A stretch of DNA of 61,186 bases from Chlorobiota bacterium (GCA_016866305.1 VGMX01000015.1:1-61186), one strand, 5' to 3'. Counted from the stretch's first letter, positions 25,325-44,551 are shown. The notes: generated by a model from the sequence alone, not told the origin. Numbers and translations are program-made.

Positions 25325-28300
25325 ATGCGGAAAATTTTTGAAAAAATATTCGGATCGAAACACGACAAGGACATAAAAAAAATTCAGCCGATCATCCAGC
25401 GTATCAACGAGCTGCAACAATCCTTCCAGTCGCTTTCCGATGATGAACTGAAGAAAAAGGGAACGGAACTGCGCACCAGGGTACGCACATTGCTGCAGCC
25501 GCTCAAGGACAAGCGAATGGAACGGCTTGCGGCTCTCGGCGATCCCGATATCGACCTCGACAAGGCGGACAAAATCAACGATGAACTCGACATCATCGCC
25601 AAGGAATACGAGAATAATACTGCTTCGATCCTTGAAGAGATCCTTCCGGAAACCTTTGCGCTGGTCAAGGATACCTGCCGCCGCCTCAAGGGACACACCT
25701 ACAGGGTGATGGGACGCGAAATGATCTGGGACATGGTGCCCTATGACGTGCAGCTTATCGGAGGCATGGTGCTGCATTCGGGCAAGATATCCGAAATGGC
25801 GACCGGCGAAGGAAAGACGCTTGTCTCCACCCTGCCGGTTTTTCTCAACGCCCTGACCGGACGTGGCGTGCACGTGGTTACGGTGAACGATTATCTTGCC
25901 CAGCGTGACAAGGAGTGGATGTCGCCGGTTTTCGAGTTTCACAACCTGAGCGTCGGGGTGATCCTCAACACCATGCAGCCGTTAGAGCGACGACAGCAGT
26001 ACCTGTGCGATATCACCTACGGCACGAACAACGAATTCGGCTTCGACTACCTGCGCGACAACATGGCCGGCACGGTGGATGAGATGGTGCAGAGGGATTT
26101 CTATTTCGCAATCGTTGATGAGGTGGACAGCGTGCTGATCGACGAGGCGAGAACACCGCTGATCATTTCAGGTCCGGTGCCCAATGCCGACAACGGAAAG
26201 TTCCAGGAAATCAAGCCATGGATCGAACAGATCGTACGCAATCAGCAGCAGCTTATGGCATCGTTCCTTTCAAAAGCCGAAACCAGCCTCAAGGCCAAGC
26301 CCGGCGATTTCGAGGCCGGGCTTGCGCTGCTGAGGGTCAAGCGCGGCCAGCCGAAGAACAGCCGGTTTATCAAGATACTCTCGCAGCAGGGTATGGCCAA
26401 ACTCGTCCAGGGCACGGAAAACGAGTATCTGAAGGACAACGCCAGCCGCATGCACGAAGTTGACGACGAGCTGTTCTATGCCATTGATGAAAAAGCCGGC
26501 ACCATCGACCTTACCGACAAGGGACGCGAGTTTCTCAGCAGGCTGAGCCATCAGGACAGCGATCTGTTCCTGCTCCCCGATGTTGGCTCTGAAATTGCCT
26601 CCATCGAAAGCAATGCTTCACTTTCAGCCACGGAAAAGATCAAGCGGAAAGATGCCGTCTACCGGCTGTTCGCGGACCGATCCGAACGATTGCACAACAT
26701 CAGCCAGCTGCTCAAGGCGTATTCGCTCTTCGAGCGTGACGACGAATATGTCGTACAGGATGGCAAGGTGATGATTGTCGATGAATTCACCGGCAGGATC
26801 CTGCCCGGCCGCCGCTACAGCGACGGTCTGCACCAGGCGATCGAAGCCAAGGAGAACGTCAGGATCGAAGGCGAGACGCAGACCATGGCCACCATCACCA
26901 TCCAGAATTTCTTCCGGCTTTACAAAAAGCTGGCCGGCATGACCGGCACGGCTGAAACCGAGGCTTCGGAGTTCTACGAAATCTACAAGCTCGACGTGGT
27001 GGTTATTCCCACAAACAAGCCCGTCGTGCGGCGTGATATGGATGACCTGGTCTACAAAACCCGTCGTGAAAAGTACAACGCCATCATCGGCAAAGTCGAG
27101 GAACTGCAGAAAAAGGGCCAGCCGGTGCTGGTCGGCACCACCAGCGTGGATGTGTCGGAAACCCTTTCGAGAATGCTGCGCGGCAGGCGCATCGCACACA
27201 GCGTGCTGAACGCCAAGCAGCATGATCGGGAAGCCGAAATCGTCGCCGGGGCCGGCCAGAAGGGCGCGGTAACCATCGCCACGAACATGGCGGGACGCGG
27301 CACTGACATCAAGCTGGGAGAGGGAGTGCGCGAACTCGGAGGGCTCTATATTCTCGGCTCGGAACGGCACGAATCGCGCCGTATCGACCGCCAGCTCCGC
27401 GGACGTGCCGGACGTCAGGGCGATCCCGGCGAGTCGGTTTTTTTCGTCTCGCTCGAGGATGAACTGATGCGGCTGTTCGGTTCCGAACGGGTGATTTCGG
27501 TCATGGACCGCCTCGGCCACGAAGAGGGGGACGTGATCGAGCACTCCATGATCACCAAGTCCATCGAAAGGGCGCAGAAAAAGGTCGAGGAACAGAACTT
27601 TGCCATCCGCAAACGGCTGCTCGAGTACGATGACGTGCTGAACCAGCAGCGCGACGTGATCTACACCCGGCGCAGGAACGGCCTTATGAAAGACCGCCTG
27701 ACCGGCGATATTCTCGATCTGCTCAGGGATTACTGTGACCTGGTTCTCAAGAAATATGACAAGGAGCTTGACGTCGCCGAACTCGAGGAACGCATTCTCC
27801 GCGAGCTTTCGGTCGAGTTCCGGCCCGATGCCGCCCTGTTCGAGCGTGAAGGCGCGGGATTCGTCGCCGACCGTCTCTACGAGGCCGCGGTTGCCTTTTA
27901 CAAACGCAAGGAGGAGGAGATTCCCGAAGAGATCATGGGGCAGATTGAAAAGTATGCCGTGCTCAGCGTGATCGACAAAAAATGGCGGGAGCACCTGCGG
28001 GAGATCGACTCGCTGCGGGAAGGCATCAATTTGAGGGCATACGGCCAGAAAGACCCCCTGCTTGAATACAAGCAGGAGGCATACCGGCTGTTTGTCACCC
28101 TGCTGCAGGAGATCGAGCTTGAAACCCTCTCGCTTGCCTTCAAGCTCTTTCCGGTCAATCCCGATGAAGCCCGCGAGATCGAGGCCCGTCAGAAAAGAGA
28201 GGCCTTGCGCAAGGAGAAGCTTGTCGCCCAGCACGAGGCTGCCGAAAGCGTCTATCAGCAGCCGGAAGAAGGTGCGACGGAACAGGCCGAAGGTCATCAG

Positions 28301-34360: not shown

Positions 34361-35875
34361 GTGTCAAAACACAAGCTTTCCTCAAGTATTTCAACATACA
34401 GGCAGCAGATAAGTCGGCAGACGGGGAACGACTATAACTGCTGTTACCAGTGCGGCAAATGCACGGCCGGTTGCCCGGCCGGAGGGTTTATGGATAACCC
34501 TCCAGCAAAGATCATGCGCCTTGTCCAGGCCGGCTATGTCGAAGAAGCCATGCAAAGCGATGCGCTCTGGTACTGTGTGGGCTGTCAGGCCTGTACGGCA
34601 CGGTGTCCCCAGAACATGGATATCGCCGCGACCATGGACGCACTCCGGGAGCTCGCACTGAAAACCGGTGTTGTCTGCCAGGATCGTCCGAAAAAGCTCG
34701 TAACGGCATTTCACACCTCGTTTCTCAACAATATCCGCAAGCATGGCCGTCTCCAGGAACTCTCTCTGGTGAACAGCTACAAGCTCAGGACCCGTACCTT
34801 CCTGCAGGATGCGTCATCCGGCATGAAAATGATCCGGGAAGGGAAAATCAATCCTCTCGCATCGCTCAGCGGCAAGGAGGGGGTCGAGGCAAAGGAGCAG
34901 ATTGAAAAACTGTTCGTTCTGGCCGAAAAGGAGGCCGGTCACGACCCGGCTCCGGTGCGGAAACCGAAAAAGAACAGCTTTTCCCCCCAGCAGCCTCCAG
35001 CCATCAAACCCGGTATGACCATCGGATACTACCCGGGGTGTTCGCTCGGTGGAACCGCCAGGGAGTATGACATATCCGTCCGGAAAATGTGCGAACTGCT
35101 TGACATCCGGCTTCAGGAGATCCCCGACTGGAACTGCTGCGGAGCCACATCCGCCCACGCCACCAGCCACAAACTTGCCCTTCTTCTCCCGGCAAGGAAT
35201 CAGGCCCTTGCCGATGCGGCGGGCATGGATTACGTGCTTGCGCCCTGTGCCGCCTGCCAGAACCGCCAGGTAACAACCCGCAAAGCCGTGCTCGAATCGG
35301 CGGAGCTGCGCTCTGAGGTGAAAAGCGCAACCGGTATCGAGCCTACCGGCAAAGCCGAGTTCATCGGAGTCACCCAGTTGCTTGAAGGGTACAGCGGAGA
35401 GGAACTTGCCAAACGCGTCAAACGTCCCCTGAAGGATCTCAGCCTGGCCTGCTATTACGGTTGTCTGCTTGTCCGTCCAATGGATACCATGAGTTTTGAC
35501 GATCCGGAAAATCCGCTCAGGATGGAGCAGATCGTCACGGTTCTGGGAGGAAAACCGGTCGACTGGGCATTCAAGATCGAGTGCTGCGGTGCAGGTCTGA
35601 CGCTTGCCCAGCAGGAGATGGTTGAAGACCTCACGCACAGCATCGCCAGAAATGCGGCCGGAAACGGAGCAAAGGCATTTGTTGTGGCCTGTCCACTCTG
35701 CCATGCCAATCTTGACATGCGGCAGGAGGGAATGCGAAAACGGTATGACGACATCCAGCCCATGCCGGTCTACTACATTTCCGAGCTTGTCGCCATAGCA
35801 TGTGGCGCCGATCCGGCGGAAGTCGCTGTCGGGAAACATTTTGTTCCCGCACTTGAACTTCTCGCCAACCGGTAA
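34361..35875 (+). CDS. Heterodisulfide reductase HdrC-HdrB fusion
   Basis: 504 residues. The N-terminal HdrC-type ferredoxin domain has two [4Fe-4S] motifs, CCYQCGKCTAGCPAG (about 25-39) and CVGCQACTARCPQ (about 71-83). The C-terminal HdrB part (about 225-500) carries two CCG domains: YYPGCSLGG...NCCGA and ACYYGC...ECCGAG, which hold the noncubane clusters that cleave a disulfide. In methanogens the two are separate proteins. It forms the disulfide-reducing end of the Hdr-Flx complex and is the first gene of the cluster ending at 41419. Confidence 0.92.
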   Translation: MSKHKLSSSISTYRQQISRQTGNDYNCCYQCGKCTAGCPAGGFMDNPPAKIMRLVQAGYVEEAMQSDALWYCVGCQACTARCPQNMDIAATMDALRELALKTGVVCQDRPKKLVTAFHTSFLNNIRKHGRLQELSLVNSYKLRTRTFLQDASSGMKMIREGKINPLASLSGKEGVEAKEQIEKLFVLAEKEAGHDPAPVRKPKKNSFSPQQPPAIKPGMTIGYYPGCSLGGTAREYDISVRKMCELLDIRLQEIPDWNCCGATSAHATSHKLALLLPARNQALADAAGMDYVLAPCAACQNRQVTTRKAVLESAELRSEVKSATGIEPTGKAEFIGVTQLLEGYSGEELAKRVKRPLKDLSLACYYGCLLVRPMDTMSFDDPENPLRMEQIVTVLGGKPVDWAFKIECCGAGLTLAQQEMVEDLTHSIARNAAGNGAKAFVVACPLCHANLDMRQEGMRKRYDDIQPMPVYYISELVAIACGADPAEVAVGKHFVPALELLANR

Positions 35876-36196
35876 CCGGAGAACCCGATGCAGGATCATT
35901 CCGCCCTGACGGAACCGCATGCCCGTCCGGATCAGCCCGGACACAATTGAGACCATATTCCCGACCTGTTTCGGAGGCCGGCTTCGGACATGACGAATAA
36001 ACCATATCTCACATGCATCCCCGTCTCTGTGTCGGGAGTCGGAAAAAAAGATTTTTTGCGGCAGAAACCCTGCAGTACCGAAACCGGAAGCCGGAAAAAA
36101 CCGTTGAGAGTTTTCATTGGCACGCAGATGCCTCGTAGCGAACCGTAAAGCAGTGCAATCCTGCAGTGTGCTGTTTCCGTAACCATCAATGAAAGA
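35876..36196. other. 321-bp gap inside the hdr-flx cluster with a hairpin
   Basis: No convincing gene. GTCCGG (35925-35930) and CCGGAC (35937-35942) form a perfect 6-bp hairpin without a following T-run. Downstream are A-rich tracts. It may hold a second promoter for hdrA-flx or an RNA processing/attenuation site. Confidence 0.4.
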
Positions 36197-38170
36197 ATGG
36201 CAAAAATAGGAGTTTTCGTCTGTCACTGCGGCGAGAATATCGCCTCGAATGTCGATACGGCCAATCTGGTCAGGAAGGTATCGGAACATCCCGGTGTTGA
36301 AGTGTGCGCCGAGTACAAATATTTCTGCTCCGATCCGGGACAGGAAACCGTCAAACGAGCAATCAGGGAAAACGGCCTGACCGGTGTCGTGGTGGCGGCC
36401 TGTTCCCCGCGGATGCACGAAACAACCTTCCGCAAGGCCTGTGCAGAAGCCGGTCTCAATCCCTACATGCTTGAAATGGCCAACATCAGGGAGCATTGCT
36501 CCTGGGTTCACTCCGACAAGGAAAAGGCCACCGAAAAGGCGATCGAGATTACCCGCTCTCTGGTCGAAAAGGTCAAACGCAACAATAATCTGAAACCGAT
36601 TTCGGTGCCGGTCACGCGGCGGGCGCTGGTTATCGGCGGCGGCATCGCGGGCATCCAGGCCGCGCTCGACATTGCCGGAGCGGGGCGAGAAGTCATTCTG
36701 GTCGAACGCGAGCCTTCGATTGGCGGCCACATGTCGCAGCTCTCCGAAACCTTCCCGACGCTCGACTGCTCGCAGTGCATCCTGACACCACGGATGGTGG
36801 AAGCCATCCAGCATCCGAACATCAAGGTACTGACATACTCCGAAGTCGAAGAGGTTGACGGTTATATCGGCAACTTCAAGGCGAAGATCCGCAAGAAGTC
36901 GCGCTACGTCGATATCGACAAATGCACCGGCTGTGGAGACTGTATCCAGAAATGCCCGGTCAAGAAAGTTCCCAGCGAATTCGAATGCGGGCTCGGCAAC
37001 CGGACAGCGATCTACACCCCCTTTGCCCAGGCTGTGCCGAACGTGCCGGTCATCGACACGACCCGCTGCACCTACTTCAAGAACGGCAAGTGCAAAATCT
37101 GCCAGAAAACCTGCCAGATCGAGAACTGCATCGATTTCGGTATGCAGGATACCTTCGAGGAATATGAAGTCGGCGCCATTGTCGTGGCCACCGGCTTTCA
37201 GATCCAGGACACCACCCTCTACGGCGAATACGGCTACGGCAGGTACAAGGACGTGATTACCGGCCTGAGCTTCGAGCGTCTTGCTTCGGCCAGCGGGCCG
37301 ACCAGCGGTGTCATCAAACGTCCTTCGGACGGAAAAGAGCCTGAGACCATCGTGTTCATCCAGTGCGCCGGGTCACGCGACCCCTCCAAGGGCGTCAGGT
37401 ACTGCTCGAAAATCTGCTGTATGTACACGGCAAAACACGCCATGCTTTACGCCCACAAGAATCACGATGGCAGGAGCCGGATCTTCTACATGGACATCCG
37501 TGCGGCCGGCAAGGGGTATGACGAGTTCACCCGACGCGCCATCGAGGAGGATGGAGCCGAATACCTGCGCGGACGGGTCAGCAAGCTGTATGAAGAGAAT
37601 GGCAAACTGATCGTGCGCGGAGTCGATTCGCTGCTCGGCAAACCGGTAGAAATCGCCGCCGATATGGTGGTACTGGCCACGGCAATCGTGCCACAGCCTG
37701 ACGCCAGGGAGTTCGCCAAACGGATCGGCATCGGTTATGACGAATATGGCTTCTACAATGAAGCGCACATGAAGCTCCGACCGGTCGAGACGGCTACGGC
37801 CGGCATCTACCTCTGCGGCGCTTGCCAGTCGCCGAAGGACATTCCGGACTCGGTCGCCCAGGCTTCTGCTGCGGCAGCCAAGGTGCTCGGACTCTTCAGC
37901 CGCGAACAGCTCGAGCGCGAACCGGTGGTGGCCTCGGTCAGCGATGCCACCTGCGCCGGATGCTTTGGCTGCGTCATGGCCTGCCCGTACAACGCGATCG
38001 ACGTGCGCGACATCAACGACCGGAACGGCAACCTCATCAAACAGGTGGCCGACGTCAATCCCGGACTCTGTCAGGGATGCGGCACCTGCGTGACCTTCTG
38101 CCGCTCAAACAGCATTGATCTGGCCGGGTTCACCGAAAACCAGATCTTTGCCGAAATCATGGCCCTTTGA
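36197..38170 (+). CDS. hdrA: Electron-bifurcating heterodisulfide reductase subunit HdrA
   Basis: 657 residues. The N-terminal region has IGVFVCHCGEN and a cysteine block typical of HdrA; the FAD-binding site is IGGGIAGIQAALDIAGAG (about 140-157), with LDCSQCILTPRMVE. [4Fe-4S] motifs include CTGCGDCIQKCPV, CAGCFGCVMACPYNAI and CQGCGTCVTFCRSNSI. HdrA holds the bifurcating FAD that splits electrons between ferredoxin and the disulfide. It is flanked by HdrCB and a MvhD/FlxD-like gene. Length agrees with long methanogen HdrA. Confidence 0.95.
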   Translation: MAKIGVFVCHCGENIASNVDTANLVRKVSEHPGVEVCAEYKYFCSDPGQETVKRAIRENGLTGVVVAACSPRMHETTFRKACAEAGLNPYMLEMANIREHCSWVHSDKEKATEKAIEITRSLVEKVKRNNNLKPISVPVTRRALVIGGGIAGIQAALDIAGAGREVILVEREPSIGGHMSQLSETFPTLDCSQCILTPRMVEAIQHPNIKVLTYSEVEEVDGYIGNFKAKIRKKSRYVDIDKCTGCGDCIQKCPVKKVPSEFECGLGNRTAIYTPFAQAVPNVPVIDTTRCTYFKNGKCKICQKTCQIENCIDFGMQDTFEEYEVGAIVVATGFQIQDTTLYGEYGYGRYKDVITGLSFERLASASGPTSGVIKRPSDGKEPETIVFIQCAGSRDPSKGVRYCSKICCMYTAKHAMLYAHKNHDGRSRIFYMDIRAAGKGYDEFTRRAIEEDGAEYLRGRVSKLYEENGKLIVRGVDSLLGKPVEIAADMVVLATAIVPQPDAREFAKRIGIGYDEYGFYNEAHMKLRPVETATAGIYLCGACQSPKDIPDSVAQASAAAAKVLGLFSREQLEREPVVASVSDATCAGCFGCVMACPYNAIDVRDINDRNGNLIKQVADVNPGLCQGCGTCVTFCRSNSIDLAGFTENQIFAEIMAL

Positions 38171-38237
38171 GGGGCTGAAACTCCGTTGAAGCACGGAAAA
38201 GCAAACCGAACCAAAACCAAGCGACCGAATTCAGCCG

Positions 38238-38687
38238 ATGAGTGAATCATTCGAACCGAAAATAGTGGCTTTTGTCTGCACCTACTGCACCTATGCCGGT
38301 GCCGACCTTGCAGGCACCAGCCGTCTGAAATACGCCCCGAACGTCAGGATCGTGCGTCTTCCCTGCACCGGACGCATCAGCCCGATGTTCATCCTCAAGG
38401 CGCTGCAGAAAGGGGCCGACTCCGTGCTGGTCAGCGGCTGTCATCCGGGTGACTGCCACTTCGCGGCAGGAAACTATCATGCCAGGCGTCGCTGGACGGT
38501 TTTCCGCGCTCTGCTTGCCTTCACGGGCATTCCTGAAGAGCGCATCCGATTCTCGTGGGTCAGCGCCGCCGAAGGAGCCAAGTTTGCCGATCTGATCAAC
38601 GAAATCACCGAGGAGACCAAAAAGCTCGGCCCGTTCACGCAGTACCAGGAACTGCAGAAAGCCATTGAAACCCAGTCTTCGTATTAA
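38238..38687 (+). CDS. flxD: MvhD/FlxD-like [2Fe-2S] protein linking Hdr to its electron donor
   Basis: 149 residues, the length of MvhD. Conserved cysteines: FVCTYCTYAGAD, RLPCTGRIS, VSGCHPGDCHFAAGNY. In methanogens MvhD transfers electrons from the hydrogenase to HdrA; in sulfate reducers FlxD does so from the NADH-oxidising FlxA-C proteins. Placed between hdrA and flxC. The next gene's start (38698) lies 10 bp downstream, suggesting translational coupling. Confidence 0.88.
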   Translation: MSESFEPKIVAFVCTYCTYAGADLAGTSRLKYAPNVRIVRLPCTGRISPMFILKALQKGADSVLVSGCHPGDCHFAAGNYHARRRWTVFRALLAFTGIPEERIRFSWVSAAEGAKFADLINEITEETKKLGPFTQYQELQKAIETQSSY

Positions 38688-38697
38688 GAAACCATTC

Positions 38698-39528
38698 ATG
38701 GGAATACAGGAACAATACAGAAGTGAAGCGGCGGAGCTGCTCTCATCGGGCGAAGTGAAGCTGGTTATCGGCTTCGGAGCCGGCTCGACCGCCGACCGCC
38801 GCCGTCCGCTGTTCGCACGCACACCCGAAGAGAGCGAAAAGCTGGTGCTCGACCAGAATTGCATCGCCAACCTCACGACCTACCTGGTCGCCGGAGGCCT
38901 GCTCACGGACGGCAAGAAGGTTGCCGTCTTCCTGAAGCCGGACGGCATCAGGAGCCTGAACATCCTCATCGCCGAGTCACAGGTCAAGGCCGAGCAGGTG
39001 GTGATCTTCGGCTTCGCGATCGAAAACAACGAAGTAACGCCTCTGGAAGGACGTTCGATCAGTGATTTCGCAAAGCTTGGTGAAAAGCTTCGTACTGCCA
39101 CCCCGCCGCCATCCGTGCAGGAGGAGGCCGAGAGGCTCGAAGCGATGGGCTCTTCCGGGCGTTTCGAGTACTGGAAAGAGCAGTTCTCCAAATGCATCAA
39201 GTGCTACGCCTGCCGACAGGCCTGCCCGATGTGCTACTGCCGCCGGTGCATTGTTGACGTCAACCAGCCGCAGTGGGTCAGCACCTCGTCGCATACCCTC
39301 GGCAACTTTGAATGGAACCTCGTCAGGGCATTCCACCTTGCCGGACGGTGCGCTGCCTGCGGTGCCTGCGACCGGGCCTGCCCGGTGAACATCCCGCTCC
39401 GGCTCATCAACTACCGCATGGGCAAAGAGGTCAAAGAGGCCTTTGATTATTTCGCCGGTGAAAGCAGCGACCAGAATCCCGTCCTCGCCAGCTTCCGCCA
39501 GGACGATCCCGAGACCTTCATTCTTTAA
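38698..39528 (+). CDS. flxC: FlxC-like ferredoxin-type subunit
   Basis: 276 residues from ATG 38698; an upstream TTG (38665) would overlap flxD. C-terminal [4Fe-4S] motifs: CIKCYACRQACPMCYC (about 164-179) and CAACGACDRACPVN. The N-terminal half (VKLVIGFGAGSTADRRRPLF, VLDQNCIANLTTYLV) matches coenzyme-F420-hydrogenase/FlxC-type subunits. It is thought to pass electrons from FlxA to FlxD. Confidence 0.8.
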   Translation: MGIQEQYRSEAAELLSSGEVKLVIGFGAGSTADRRRPLFARTPEESEKLVLDQNCIANLTTYLVAGGLLTDGKKVAVFLKPDGIRSLNILIAESQVKAEQVVIFGFAIENNEVTPLEGRSISDFAKLGEKLRTATPPPSVQEEAERLEAMGSSGRFEYWKEQFSKCIKCYACRQACPMCYCRRCIVDVNQPQWVSTSSHTLGNFEWNLVRAFHLAGRCAACGACDRACPVNIPLRLINYRMGKEVKEAFDYFAGESSDQNPVLASFRQDDPETFIL

Positions 39529-39542
39529 GCATCCTGAAAAGC

Positions 39543-40556
39543 ATGACCAGAATACTTCCCAAGAATAAACTCGACGACTGTATTGCCGCCTGGCAGAAAG
39601 CCGGTTTCAGCGTGCTCGCACCGGTTCAGCGTCACGGCATGAGCAGCTTCGGCGAGGTGCAGAAGGCTTCAGAAATGGCCCTCGACCTCATCCTGACGGA
39701 ACGCACCATCAAGGACCACTTCTTCCCGCAGACCGAACCGCTGATCAAGTACAAGATCAGCAAGCACGACATCGACTCCGAAACCATGACTCCGCCCGAG
39801 AGGAAACGCATCTTCTTCGGCGTCCGTCCGTGCGATGCTTCGGGTCTGGAAATCGACGATCCGCTCTTCGGCTGGGACTACAAGGACGACTACTGGTTCA
39901 GGCGCCGCGAGAACTCGGTGATCGTCTCCATCGCCTGCAGCGAGGCGGACGATTTCTGCATGTGCACCTCGGTGAAGCTCTCACCGGACAGCACCAGGGG
40001 GGCGGACGTGATGCTCCGTCCGCTCTCGGGCGGCAACGGCTGGCAGGTCGAAGCCATCAGCGAACGCGGCACGGCGCTCTGCGACACCGTCTCCTCTTTG
40101 TTGCAGGAGGAGACGGCGCAAGCCGCACCGCTGCCCCGGGTTGACGGGAAATTTGACGTCGAAAAGGTGATGGAGTGGCTCGCCGACAAGGAGAACTTCG
40201 AAAGCCGGTTCTGGAAGGATATCTCCATGCGCTGCATCGGCTGCGGCAGCTGCACCTTCCTCTGCCCCACCTGCCACTGCTTCGACATCCAGGACGAAGG
40301 CGACACCTACCAGGGCATCCGCCGAAAGAACTGGGACAGCTGCTCCTTCGCGCTCTTCACCATGCACACCTCAGGCCACAACCCGAGAAACGCGCAATCG
40401 ACCAGGTGGCGCCAGCGCATCATGCACAAGTTCAATTACTATCAGGGCAAGTTCGGCGTCAACAGTTGCAGCGGCTGCGGCCGGTGCACCCGCCAGTGCC
40501 CGGTGGACATGGGTATTACCGAAACTCTGCAAGCGATTACAAATTTACCGAGGTGA
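39543..40556 (+). CDS. flxB: FlxB-like iron-sulfur subunit
   Basis: 337 residues. Two C-terminal [4Fe-4S] motifs, CIGCGSCTFLCPTCHC and CSGCGRCTRQCPVDMGITE. The N-terminal region has GVRPCDASGLEIDDPLFGWD, typical of sulfhydrogenase-beta/FlxB proteins. It overlaps the flxA start by GTGA (40553-40556). Part of the NADH-oxidising module. Confidence 0.85.
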   Translation: MTRILPKNKLDDCIAAWQKAGFSVLAPVQRHGMSSFGEVQKASEMALDLILTERTIKDHFFPQTEPLIKYKISKHDIDSETMTPPERKRIFFGVRPCDASGLEIDDPLFGWDYKDDYWFRRRENSVIVSIACSEADDFCMCTSVKLSPDSTRGADVMLRPLSGGNGWQVEAISERGTALCDTVSSLLQEETAQAAPLPRVDGKFDVEKVMEWLADKENFESRFWKDISMRCIGCGSCTFLCPTCHCFDIQDEGDTYQGIRRKNWDSCSFALFTMHTSGHNPRNAQSTRWRQRIMHKFNYYQGKFGVNSCSGCGRCTRQCPVDMGITETLQAITNLPR

Positions 40557-41419
40557 CACAAGACCGATACCACACCAACGACATGATCTACACCCCGTTC
40601 CCGATGCGGGTTGTATCGAAGCGTGAAGAGGCCCCCGGCGTCAGGACGCTCAAACTTGAATTCGTTCGCCAGGAGGATCACGAGTTCTTCAAGGCAAACT
40701 ACCGGACCGGCATGTTCGGCCTTTACGGGCTCTTCGGCGAAGGAGAAAGCACTTTCTGCGTGGCCAGTCCGGAAACCCGCAAAGACGCTATCGAATGCAC
40801 CTTCCGGCAGTCGGGCCGGGTGACTTCGATGCTCTCCGGTGTCGATGCCGGTGACCTCGTGACCTTCCGGGGCCCGTATGGCAACTGCTTCCCCATTGAG
40901 CAGTTCTACGGAAAAAACCTGCTCTTCATTGCAGGAGGCATCGCCCTGCCTCCGACACGGAGCGTGATCTGGTCGTGCCTCGACCGGCGCGAGAAGTTCG
41001 GCAGGGTAACCATCGTGTACGGAGCGAGAACCGTTGCCGATCTGGTCTACAAGCATGAGCTGGACGACTGGAAAAAGCGCGACGACGTCAATCTCGTGCT
41101 TACCGTCGATCCGGGAGGCGAAACCCCGGACTGGACCGATCACGTCGGCTTCGTCCCCACCGTACTCGAACAGGCCGCCCCGTCACCGGACAACACCATC
41201 GCCGTGCTGTGCGGGCCTCCGATCATGATCAAGTTCACCCTGATCTCTCTGCAGAAGCTGGGCTTCGATCAGGAGAACGTGTACACCACACTTGAAAACC
41301 GCATGAAATGCGGCGTCGGCAAATGCGGCCGGTGCAACGTGGGATCGGTCTACATCTGCAAGGAGGGACCTGTCTTTACCGCCGCTGAAGTATCGAGGAT
41401 GCCGGAAGGCGATCTGTAG
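40553..41419 (+). CDS. flxA: FlxA-like FAD/NAD(P)H oxidoreductase subunit
   Basis: 288 residues from GTG 40553; ATG 40583 (MIYTPFPMRV) is the other option. Sulfhydrogenase-gamma/ferredoxin-reductase-like fold: FAD-binding segment FGLYGLFGEGES, NAD-binding GKNLLFIAGGIALPPTRS, and a C-terminal [2Fe-2S] motif CGVGKCGRCNVGSVYICKEG. It oxidises NADH and feeds electrons into Hdr. Last gene of the hdrCB-hdrA-flxDCBA cluster. Confidence 0.88.
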   Translation: MTQDRYHTNDMIYTPFPMRVVSKREEAPGVRTLKLEFVRQEDHEFFKANYRTGMFGLYGLFGEGESTFCVASPETRKDAIECTFRQSGRVTSMLSGVDAGDLVTFRGPYGNCFPIEQFYGKNLLFIAGGIALPPTRSVIWSCLDRREKFGRVTIVYGARTVADLVYKHELDDWKKRDDVNLVLTVDPGGETPDWTDHVGFVPTVLEQAAPSPDNTIAVLCGPPIMIKFTLISLQKLGFDQENVYTTLENRMKCGVGKCGRCNVGSVYICKEGPVFTAAEVSRMPEGDL

Positions 41420-43810: not shown

Positions 43811-44551
43811 ATGACAAAAAAGCGTTATGTGCAGGAATAAACCGTTTCCGTCACTATCCCTCCGCGACGCTCAACGGCTGCGTCAATGATGCGAAAGAGA
43901 TGCAAAAGCCACCAAAGAGGCCATCATGGCAAAACTGCCGGCAATGGTCGATGGCGCCGTTGCCGGAAAGCACGATTACCTTGTTTTCAGCTTTTCCAGT
44001 CACGGTACACAGGTCCCCGATGCCGGAGGCGATGAACCGGACAATGCCGATGAGGCTTTCTGCCCTTACGACCTCCAACAGAACGGGGATCACTGGCATC
44101 CCGACCATATCATCACGGACGATGAGCTGAACACCCTTTTCGCTGCCATTTCGGAACAGGTCACCCTTGAAGTGTTTCCGGATACGTGCCACAGCGGAAC
44201 CGGACTGCGGGCTATCGACCTGCTGCTCGATCGCAAACCCCGGTATCTTCCCCACCCCCGTCCCTGGAAGCGTTTCTGCAGCTGCAGCCCCTCAGACCAA
44301 GGGGACTTGCCGATCTGCGCTTGCGCGAGGAACCGCCGGGACACATCCTCTGGGCGGGCTGCAAGGCTGAAGAGACCGGCGCGGATGCGCTCACCTGCTT
44401 TCTCTGCAGGGAAATGCGGGCCTCACGGAGTCACCTGTCAAGGGAAGCACTGCTGAAACAGGTTCTCACGGGACTGAAATCCCGCAGATACCCTCAGACT
44501 CCCCAACTGGAGTGCAATGCCGCAAAAAAAAGTGCCCCGGTCGGTTCCTGA
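43811..44551 (+). pseudogene. Broken metacaspase-like (C14) gene
   Basis: The first frame from ATG 43811 stops after 9 codons (MTKKRYVQE). Shifted frames then give KKALCAGINRFRHYPSATLN and NGCVNDAKEM (caspase N-terminus), then the catalytic part DYLVFSFSSHGTQVPDAGGD (histidine) and LEVFPDTCHSGTGLRAID (cysteine), and finally HILWAGCKAEETGADA through QTPQLECNAAKKS with TGA at 44549-44551. About 30 residues between KEM and TKEAIMAKL appear deleted. Two or more frameshifts plus a deletion make it a pseudogene. The catalytic His and Cys are still visible, so loss is fairly recent. Confidence 0.8.

Follow-up and report, generated by a model that had tools for sequence, protein, structure and literature searches.

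A predicted FlxABCD-HdrABC complex conserved in Chlorobiaceae and kept in genomes without detectable DsrC

We describe a FlxABCD-HdrABC gene cluster in a 61,186-nucleotide stretch of DNA from a Chlorobiota bacterium (GCA_016866305.1 VGMX01000015.1:1-61186; the whole stretch is hereafter the window), in which six open reading frames (ORFs), hdrCB, hdrA, flxD, flxC, flxB, and flxA, lie in that sequence at positions 34361-41419 on the + strand. The whole is best explained, and we think probably, as coding for a canonical cytoplasmic FlxABCD-HdrABC complex that would bifurcate electrons and serve as a DsrC-independent entry point from NADH to ferredoxin. The six-gene content is secure, as is, by homology, its place in this known family; it is not a new system. 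The value of the cluster lies in its family-wide conservation independent of DsrC, a contrast with NuoF, and a natural chimera; it is otherwise an ordinary family member in an interesting host.

The source genome (G000; 2.24 Mb in 47 contigs, 99.99% complete, with a contamination estimate of 0.05%) carries ATP-citrate lyase, DsrC, and DsrA, in keeping with the green sulfur bacterial host originally proposed. The best relatives of its methionyl-tRNA synthetase lie within genus code g1. We equate g1 with Chlorobium and g2 with Chlorobaculum, names inferred from named loci: Chlorobium ferrooxidans and Chlorobium sp. N1 are among the g1-like records, and Chlorobaculum parvum is among the g2-like ones.

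The cluster contains all parts of a FlxABCD-HdrABC complex

The genes for HdrA, HdrB, HdrC, and FlxA to FlxD stand together in one cluster, and the original prediction that all parts of the complex are present in order, with HdrC and HdrB fused into a single 504-amino acid (aa) frame, holds on both counts. The features are as follows.

34361-35875, + strand: HdrCB fusion, 504 aa, with two [4Fe-4S] sites (HdrC) and an HdrB part with two five-cysteine CCG sites (Pfam Fer4 and two CCG domains; 8rvu_b, 7bkb_C)
35876-36196, + strand: non-coding gap of 321 bp, containing the left boundary of the swapped segment (sequence; identity profile)
36197-38170, + strand: HdrA, full-length, 657 aa, with N-terminal Cys domain, FAD domain, inserted ferredoxin domain, and C-terminal dicluster ferredoxin (5odc_A, 8rvu_a, 7bkb_A; HdrA2 model)
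38238-38687, + strand: FlxD, MvhD/FlpD-like [2Fe-2S] adaptor, 149 aa (PF02662, E=4e-51)
38698-39528, + strand: FlxC, 276 aa from the ATG at 38698, with an FdhB-like C-terminal half and two [4Fe-4S] motifs (9t1s_M, 7bkb_E)
39543-40556, + strand: FlxB, sulfhydrogenase-beta/AsrA-like iron-sulfur subunit, 337 aa (9nez_B; PF17179)
40583-41419, + strand: FlxA, FAD/NAD-binding subunit with C-terminal [2Fe-2S], 278 aa (9nez_C; PF00175, PF10418); an alternative GTG start at 40553 overlaps the flxB stop
36194-41391, + strand: segment apparently replaced from a Chlorobaculum-type donor, its right end inside FlxA at about 40.75-41.39 kb (nucleotide identity, HdrA tree, per-gene identities)

The sequence matches that identify the subunits are far beyond chance. 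HdrA matches the solved HdrA 5odc_A (E=1.7e-207) and the HdrA2 model (774.6 bits); its residues 3-656 align with five solved HdrA proteins, the FAD and ferredoxin domains are kept, and all four ferredoxin-type [4Fe-4S] motifs are intact. HdrCB reads in one frame through an HdrC dicluster domain (Fer4, residues 26-87; 7bkb_C, E=2.9e-14) and an HdrB part with two CCG domains (residues 222-500; 8rvu_b, E=1.8e-32). Ten cysteines for the noncubane clusters of HdrB (C227, C259, C260, C296, and C299; C368, C408, C409, C444, and C447, in alignment numbering) line up with those of solved HdrB, both CCG motifs are complete, and the HdrCB ligand cysteines are all invariant across eight Chlorobiaceae. An AlphaFold model of HdrCB built from 8 sequences had a mean predicted local distance difference test (pLDDT) score of 63, too poor to use. 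FlxD matches the FlpD/MvhD family PF02662; the C-terminal half of FlxC matches 9t1s_M (E=9e-20) and 7bkb_E, the FdhB of HdrABC-FdhAB (E=1.4e-19); FlxB matches sulfhydrogenase-1 beta (9nez_B, E=7e-38) as well as PF17179; and FlxA matches sulfhydrogenase-1 gamma (9nez_C, E=1.9e-52), with PF00175 and PF10418 marking an FAD/NAD-binding domain and a [2Fe-2S] site.

These homologies support the general reading first put forward, a NADH:ferredoxin/disulfide bifurcating complex. The closest known system is the FlxABCD-HdrABC of Desulfovibrio vulgaris and other anaerobes (Ramos et al. 2015, as cited in PMC5296606, PMC6315080, and PMC12125255), which has the same seven functional parts and a proposed NADH:ferredoxin/disulfide bifurcation; the hdrCB-hdrA-flxDCBA order also occurs in related loci and is kept in many other phyla. 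Here, by contrast, HdrC and HdrB form a single polypeptide, and the cluster is retained without need of DsrC. The methanogen HdrABC-MvhAGD and HdrABC-FdhAB complexes (5odc, 7bkb, 8rvu) have homologous HdrA, HdrB, HdrC, MvhD, and FdhB-like adaptor subunits, but electrons would enter here from NADH through FlxA/FlxB rather than from H2 or formate, and the methanogen heterodisulfide CoM-S-S-CoB is not expected in green sulfur bacteria. The ORFs of the cluster and those directly beside it include no catalytic subunit of a hydrogenase or formate dehydrogenase. Sulfhydrogenase 1 (9nez) is alike in its NAD(P)H-handling half, where the beta and gamma subunits match FlxB and FlxA, whereas its hydrogenase alpha and delta subunits have no counterpart in the cluster.

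The cluster is retained where DsrC is missing

We surveyed 98 Chlorobiales genomes, 86 in the Chlorobiaceae (f1) and 12 in three other families. HdrA is present in 84 of the 86 Chlorobiaceae: it is near full length in 80 and fragmentary in four, where the contigs are short or broken. Completeness is 66% and 87% in the two genomes lacking it. HdrA is missing from all 12 genomes of the other families, where the weak matches are partial homologs, and HdrCB follows the same pattern over the order. In the first 20 Chlorobiaceae loci fetched, the six genes are in identical order, mostly between the same neighbours. Flx-Hdr thus belongs to the core genes of an entire phototrophic family, in which reduced ferredoxin is already produced by the photosystem. 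One Chlorobium-group genome has two full-length HdrA genes (G064:C99 and G064:C10), a duplication or a mixed bin.

The original prediction offered DsrC as a partner, with the complex reducing a DsrC trisulfide or disulfide (or oxidising reduced DsrC) and so tying sulfur oxidation to NADH and ferredoxin. The source genome does encode DsrC and DsrA, and for D. vulgaris DsrC has been postulated as acceptor (PMC5296606, PMC12125255). However, DsrC was undetected in 24 Chlorobiaceae genomes, 16 of them at least 90% complete; a DsrA fragment occurs in one of these 16 (G017), and the other 15 have neither DsrC nor a DsrA match over the cut-off. A 99.6-bit sub-cut-off match in G010 could be DsrB, so the fair count is 14-15. 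HdrA and HdrCB are full-length in all 15, and the six genes were seen complete in eight of them and in the named C. ferrooxidans record. C. ferrooxidans, a photoferrotroph for which neither sulfide nor thiosulfate supports growth (PMC8302410), has a complete cluster; it corresponds to G024, the HdrA start being at contig position 27289 in both. The cluster here is not close to dsr genes, and Dysgonomonas, whose DsrC status was not checked, also has the set.

Presence of the cluster is therefore not tied to DsrC. Since HdrA and HdrCB are kept in genomes lacking DsrC and DsrA, including that of C. ferrooxidans, DsrC is not the partner everywhere and cannot generally be so in Chlorobiaceae; on gene distribution we reject it as the core role and regard it as an improbable main partner, although in genomes that have DsrC it may still be one of the partners. 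In Chlorobiaceae, Flx-Hdr appears as a conserved module independent of the Dsr sulfur pathway, and the physiological disulfide of bacterial Flx-Hdr is narrowed to molecules common to sulfide- and iron-oxidising green sulfur bacteria, a question open to test in cultured strains.

A predicted NADH-to-ferredoxin entry point

By analogy with homologous complexes, FlxA (FAD, [2Fe-2S]) would oxidise NADH and pass electrons through the iron-sulfur clusters of FlxB and FlxC to FlxD and on to the FAD of HdrA, where they would be split, one branch running through the HdrA ferredoxin domains to ferredoxin, and the other through HdrC and the HdrB clusters to reduce a disulfide. As a guess, the disulfide is probably a general one instead of DsrC: either a protein disulfide of thioredoxin type or that of N-methyl-bacillithiol. 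The latter compound is the chief thiol in Chlorobiaceae (PMC6282198), and its disulfide is a plausible substrate. In other phyla, an all-against-all comparison of flanking ORFs from 30 loci revealed no acceptor or redox gene recurring beside the cluster; the shared flanking ORFs are unrelated neighbours, mostly common to one group of similar loci.

The most likely role would be NADH-to-ferredoxin entry where complex I is without its NADH-oxidising NuoF, chiefly in darkness or when electrons are out of balance. We judged the complex I NADH module by the NuoF C-terminal domain PF10589 alone. PF10589 is present in ten of the 12 Chlorobiales outside the Chlorobiaceae and absent from the Chlorobiaceae, where the one match (27 bits, in G012) contains two stop codons. 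The NuoF domain is thus distributed reciprocally to HdrA, which fits Flx-Hdr as a possible stand-in NADH-oxidising module. A stronger version, in which Flx-Hdr took over from the missing NADH module (NuoEFG), oxidising NADH with N-methyl-bacillithiol disulfide as high-potential acceptor and supplying reduced ferredoxin to a ferredoxin-driven complex I, strikes us as rather unlikely.

Several points count against Flx-Hdr as an NADH-to-ferredoxin entry point reducing a general disulfide. The NuoF contrast is one evolutionary split between clades. Flx-Hdr is not the sole possible NADH/ferredoxin link in the source genome, because an Nfn/Sud-like flavoprotein is present over the cut-off, as is Rnf, which passes in 11 of the 86 Chlorobiaceae (here RnfC at G000:C5:12263-13561). 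N-methyl-bacillithiol as acceptor is not specifically supported, because its genes also occur in relatives outside the Chlorobiaceae (PMC6282198). The searchable literature yielded no biochemistry, expression, or mutant data on Flx-Hdr in any green sulfur bacterium, nor any paper dealing with the complex in this group. Lastly, the photosystem also reduces ferredoxin, so the reverse, NAD+-reducing direction is possible.

That direction would amount to confurcation, in which light-reduced ferredoxin and a dithiol together yield NADH for biosynthesis and the disulfide is returned to other redox pathways. The photosystem would supply the reduced ferredoxin, and the D. vulgaris complex is reported to run both ways by growth mode (PMC12125255), but Chlorobaculum, according to work cited in PMC6282198, already has a ferredoxin-NAD(P)+ reductase. 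We regard confurcation as unlikely, though less so than the roles tied to DsrC or to the reductive tricarboxylic acid (rTCA) cycle.

Under the rTCA alternative, ferredoxin would feed 2-oxoglutarate and pyruvate synthases and electrons from HdrB would go to fumarate reductase. Tubeworm symbionts, rTCA-cycle autotrophs with the same complex, have flx-hdr genes interspersed with korABCD, tfrAB, and pntAB and co-expressed with the rTCA cluster (PMC6315080, PMC11636981), and nearly all Chlorobiaceae tested have ATP-citrate lyase. Here, unlike in the symbionts, the cluster is on its own, flanked by mscL and a murB-like gene, with no kor, tfr, or acl genes among its neighbours. ATP-citrate lyase also occurs without Flx-Hdr in other Chlorobiales families (both f2 and three f4 genomes), and the link to CO2 fixation originally suggested is unsupported. 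Reading of ORFs in the source genome identified an SdhA-SdhB-SdhE set with its own separate CCG subunit, DsrK, and a large GlcD/GlcF-like CCG protein, and HdrCB is thus not a missing fumarate reductase subunit. We hold an rTCA role to be as doubtful as DsrC partnership, and the NADH-to-ferredoxin entry point remains our preferred reading.

The operon is a cross-genus chimera

Sequence comparisons identify the operon as a genus-level chimera, with HdrCB of native Chlorobium type and HdrA-FlxDCBA, five of the six genes, of Chlorobaculum type. HdrCB is 83-88% identical to its counterparts in sister Chlorobium genomes (G049, G041, G027, G048, and G047) and at most 72% identical to those of Chlorobaculum. 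Against the best Chlorobaculum match (G015 or G002), HdrA is 95%, FlxD 99%, FlxC 89%, FlxB 92%, and FlxA 90% identical, versus 80%, 83%, 66%, 67%, and 82%, respectively, against the best Chlorobium match; compared with sister Chlorobium, HdrA identity is about 79%. Nucleotide identity over 36194-41391 is 87.9% to G015 and mostly 60-84% to the sister genome G049, with the flanks showing the opposite. Chlorobaculum-type identity starts three bases ahead of the HdrA start codon, at 36194; the right break is inside FlxA, where donor-type identity fades. In the HdrA tree, the window sequence lies inside Chlorobaculum (Shimodaira-Hasegawa-like approximate likelihood ratio test, SH-aLRT, 100) and grouping with Chlorobium is rejected (approximately unbiased, AU, test, p=4e-9); in the HdrCB tree, it groups with its Chlorobium sisters. 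The genes neighbouring the cluster are of native type.

The simplest reading is that homologous recombination in place replaced HdrA-FlxDCBA. The genome is a draft of 47 contigs, and the chimera could in principle be an assembly artefact, but we find this highly improbable: a single long contig carries the swapped piece at its conserved location, flanked on both sides by native genes; the breaks coincide with gene edges or fall close to them; the closest Chlorobaculum sequences compared are 5-12% different; and the contamination estimate is 0.05%. Because HdrA-FlxDCBA was apparently swapped and HdrCB is native, the HdrA-HdrC contact apparently tolerates cross-genus mixing, and the exchange is a ready-made natural probe of Hdr interface specificity. 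Elsewhere in the source genome (G000:C1:43289-45781) are HdrA-related genes, probably QmoA/B, whose counterparts in the HdrA search are mostly in Chlorobaculum genomes; these are perhaps another import.

The HdrC-HdrB fusion and related loci

Fusion of HdrC and HdrB is typical of Chlorobiaceae and was otherwise seen in one planctomycete metagenome-assembled genome (MAG). In the ten loci examined from other phyla, the HdrC and HdrB sequences follow one another without a change of frame but with 1-2 stop codons between them; no stop intervenes in C. ferrooxidans or in the Phycisphaerae MAG L103. The fused form is common to Chlorobiaceae and at least one other lineage, because L103 has it and the HdrA tree places this MAG beside Chlorobiaceae. 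The L103 cluster (L103:7750-14457) consists of fused HdrCB and HdrA-FlxDCBA, 62-79% identical except for FlxC and FlxB at 52-54%, and its upstream genes are ClpC- and LOG-like by reading of ORFs; transfer between planctomycetes and Chlorobiaceae is possible. In a Chlorobaculum-group genome (G016:C1:766083-767554), the match to HdrCB falls into two parts (12-114 and 110-503) that overlap but lie in different frames, and the gene looks split or frameshifted.

Six Bacillota-type loci (L106, L120, L129, L141, L146, and L150) have one in-frame TGA each in HdrA (DCSQC) and FlxD (SGCHPG), at a position where the window has cysteine, which suggests that these are selenocysteine versions.

Surroundings of the cluster

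The 321-bp interval between hdrCB and hdrA contains no coding sequence; we found no terminator-like site on its + strand and no structured RNA, the fold being no better than shuffles (z -0.30). The genes 3′ of flxA, from 41445 onward, are on the opposite strand, and purL, nnrD, and an aminotransferase gene also lie nearby. An ORF at 43926-44456, 3′ of the cluster, has a weak caspase-domain match (Peptidase_C14, E=1.6e-4).

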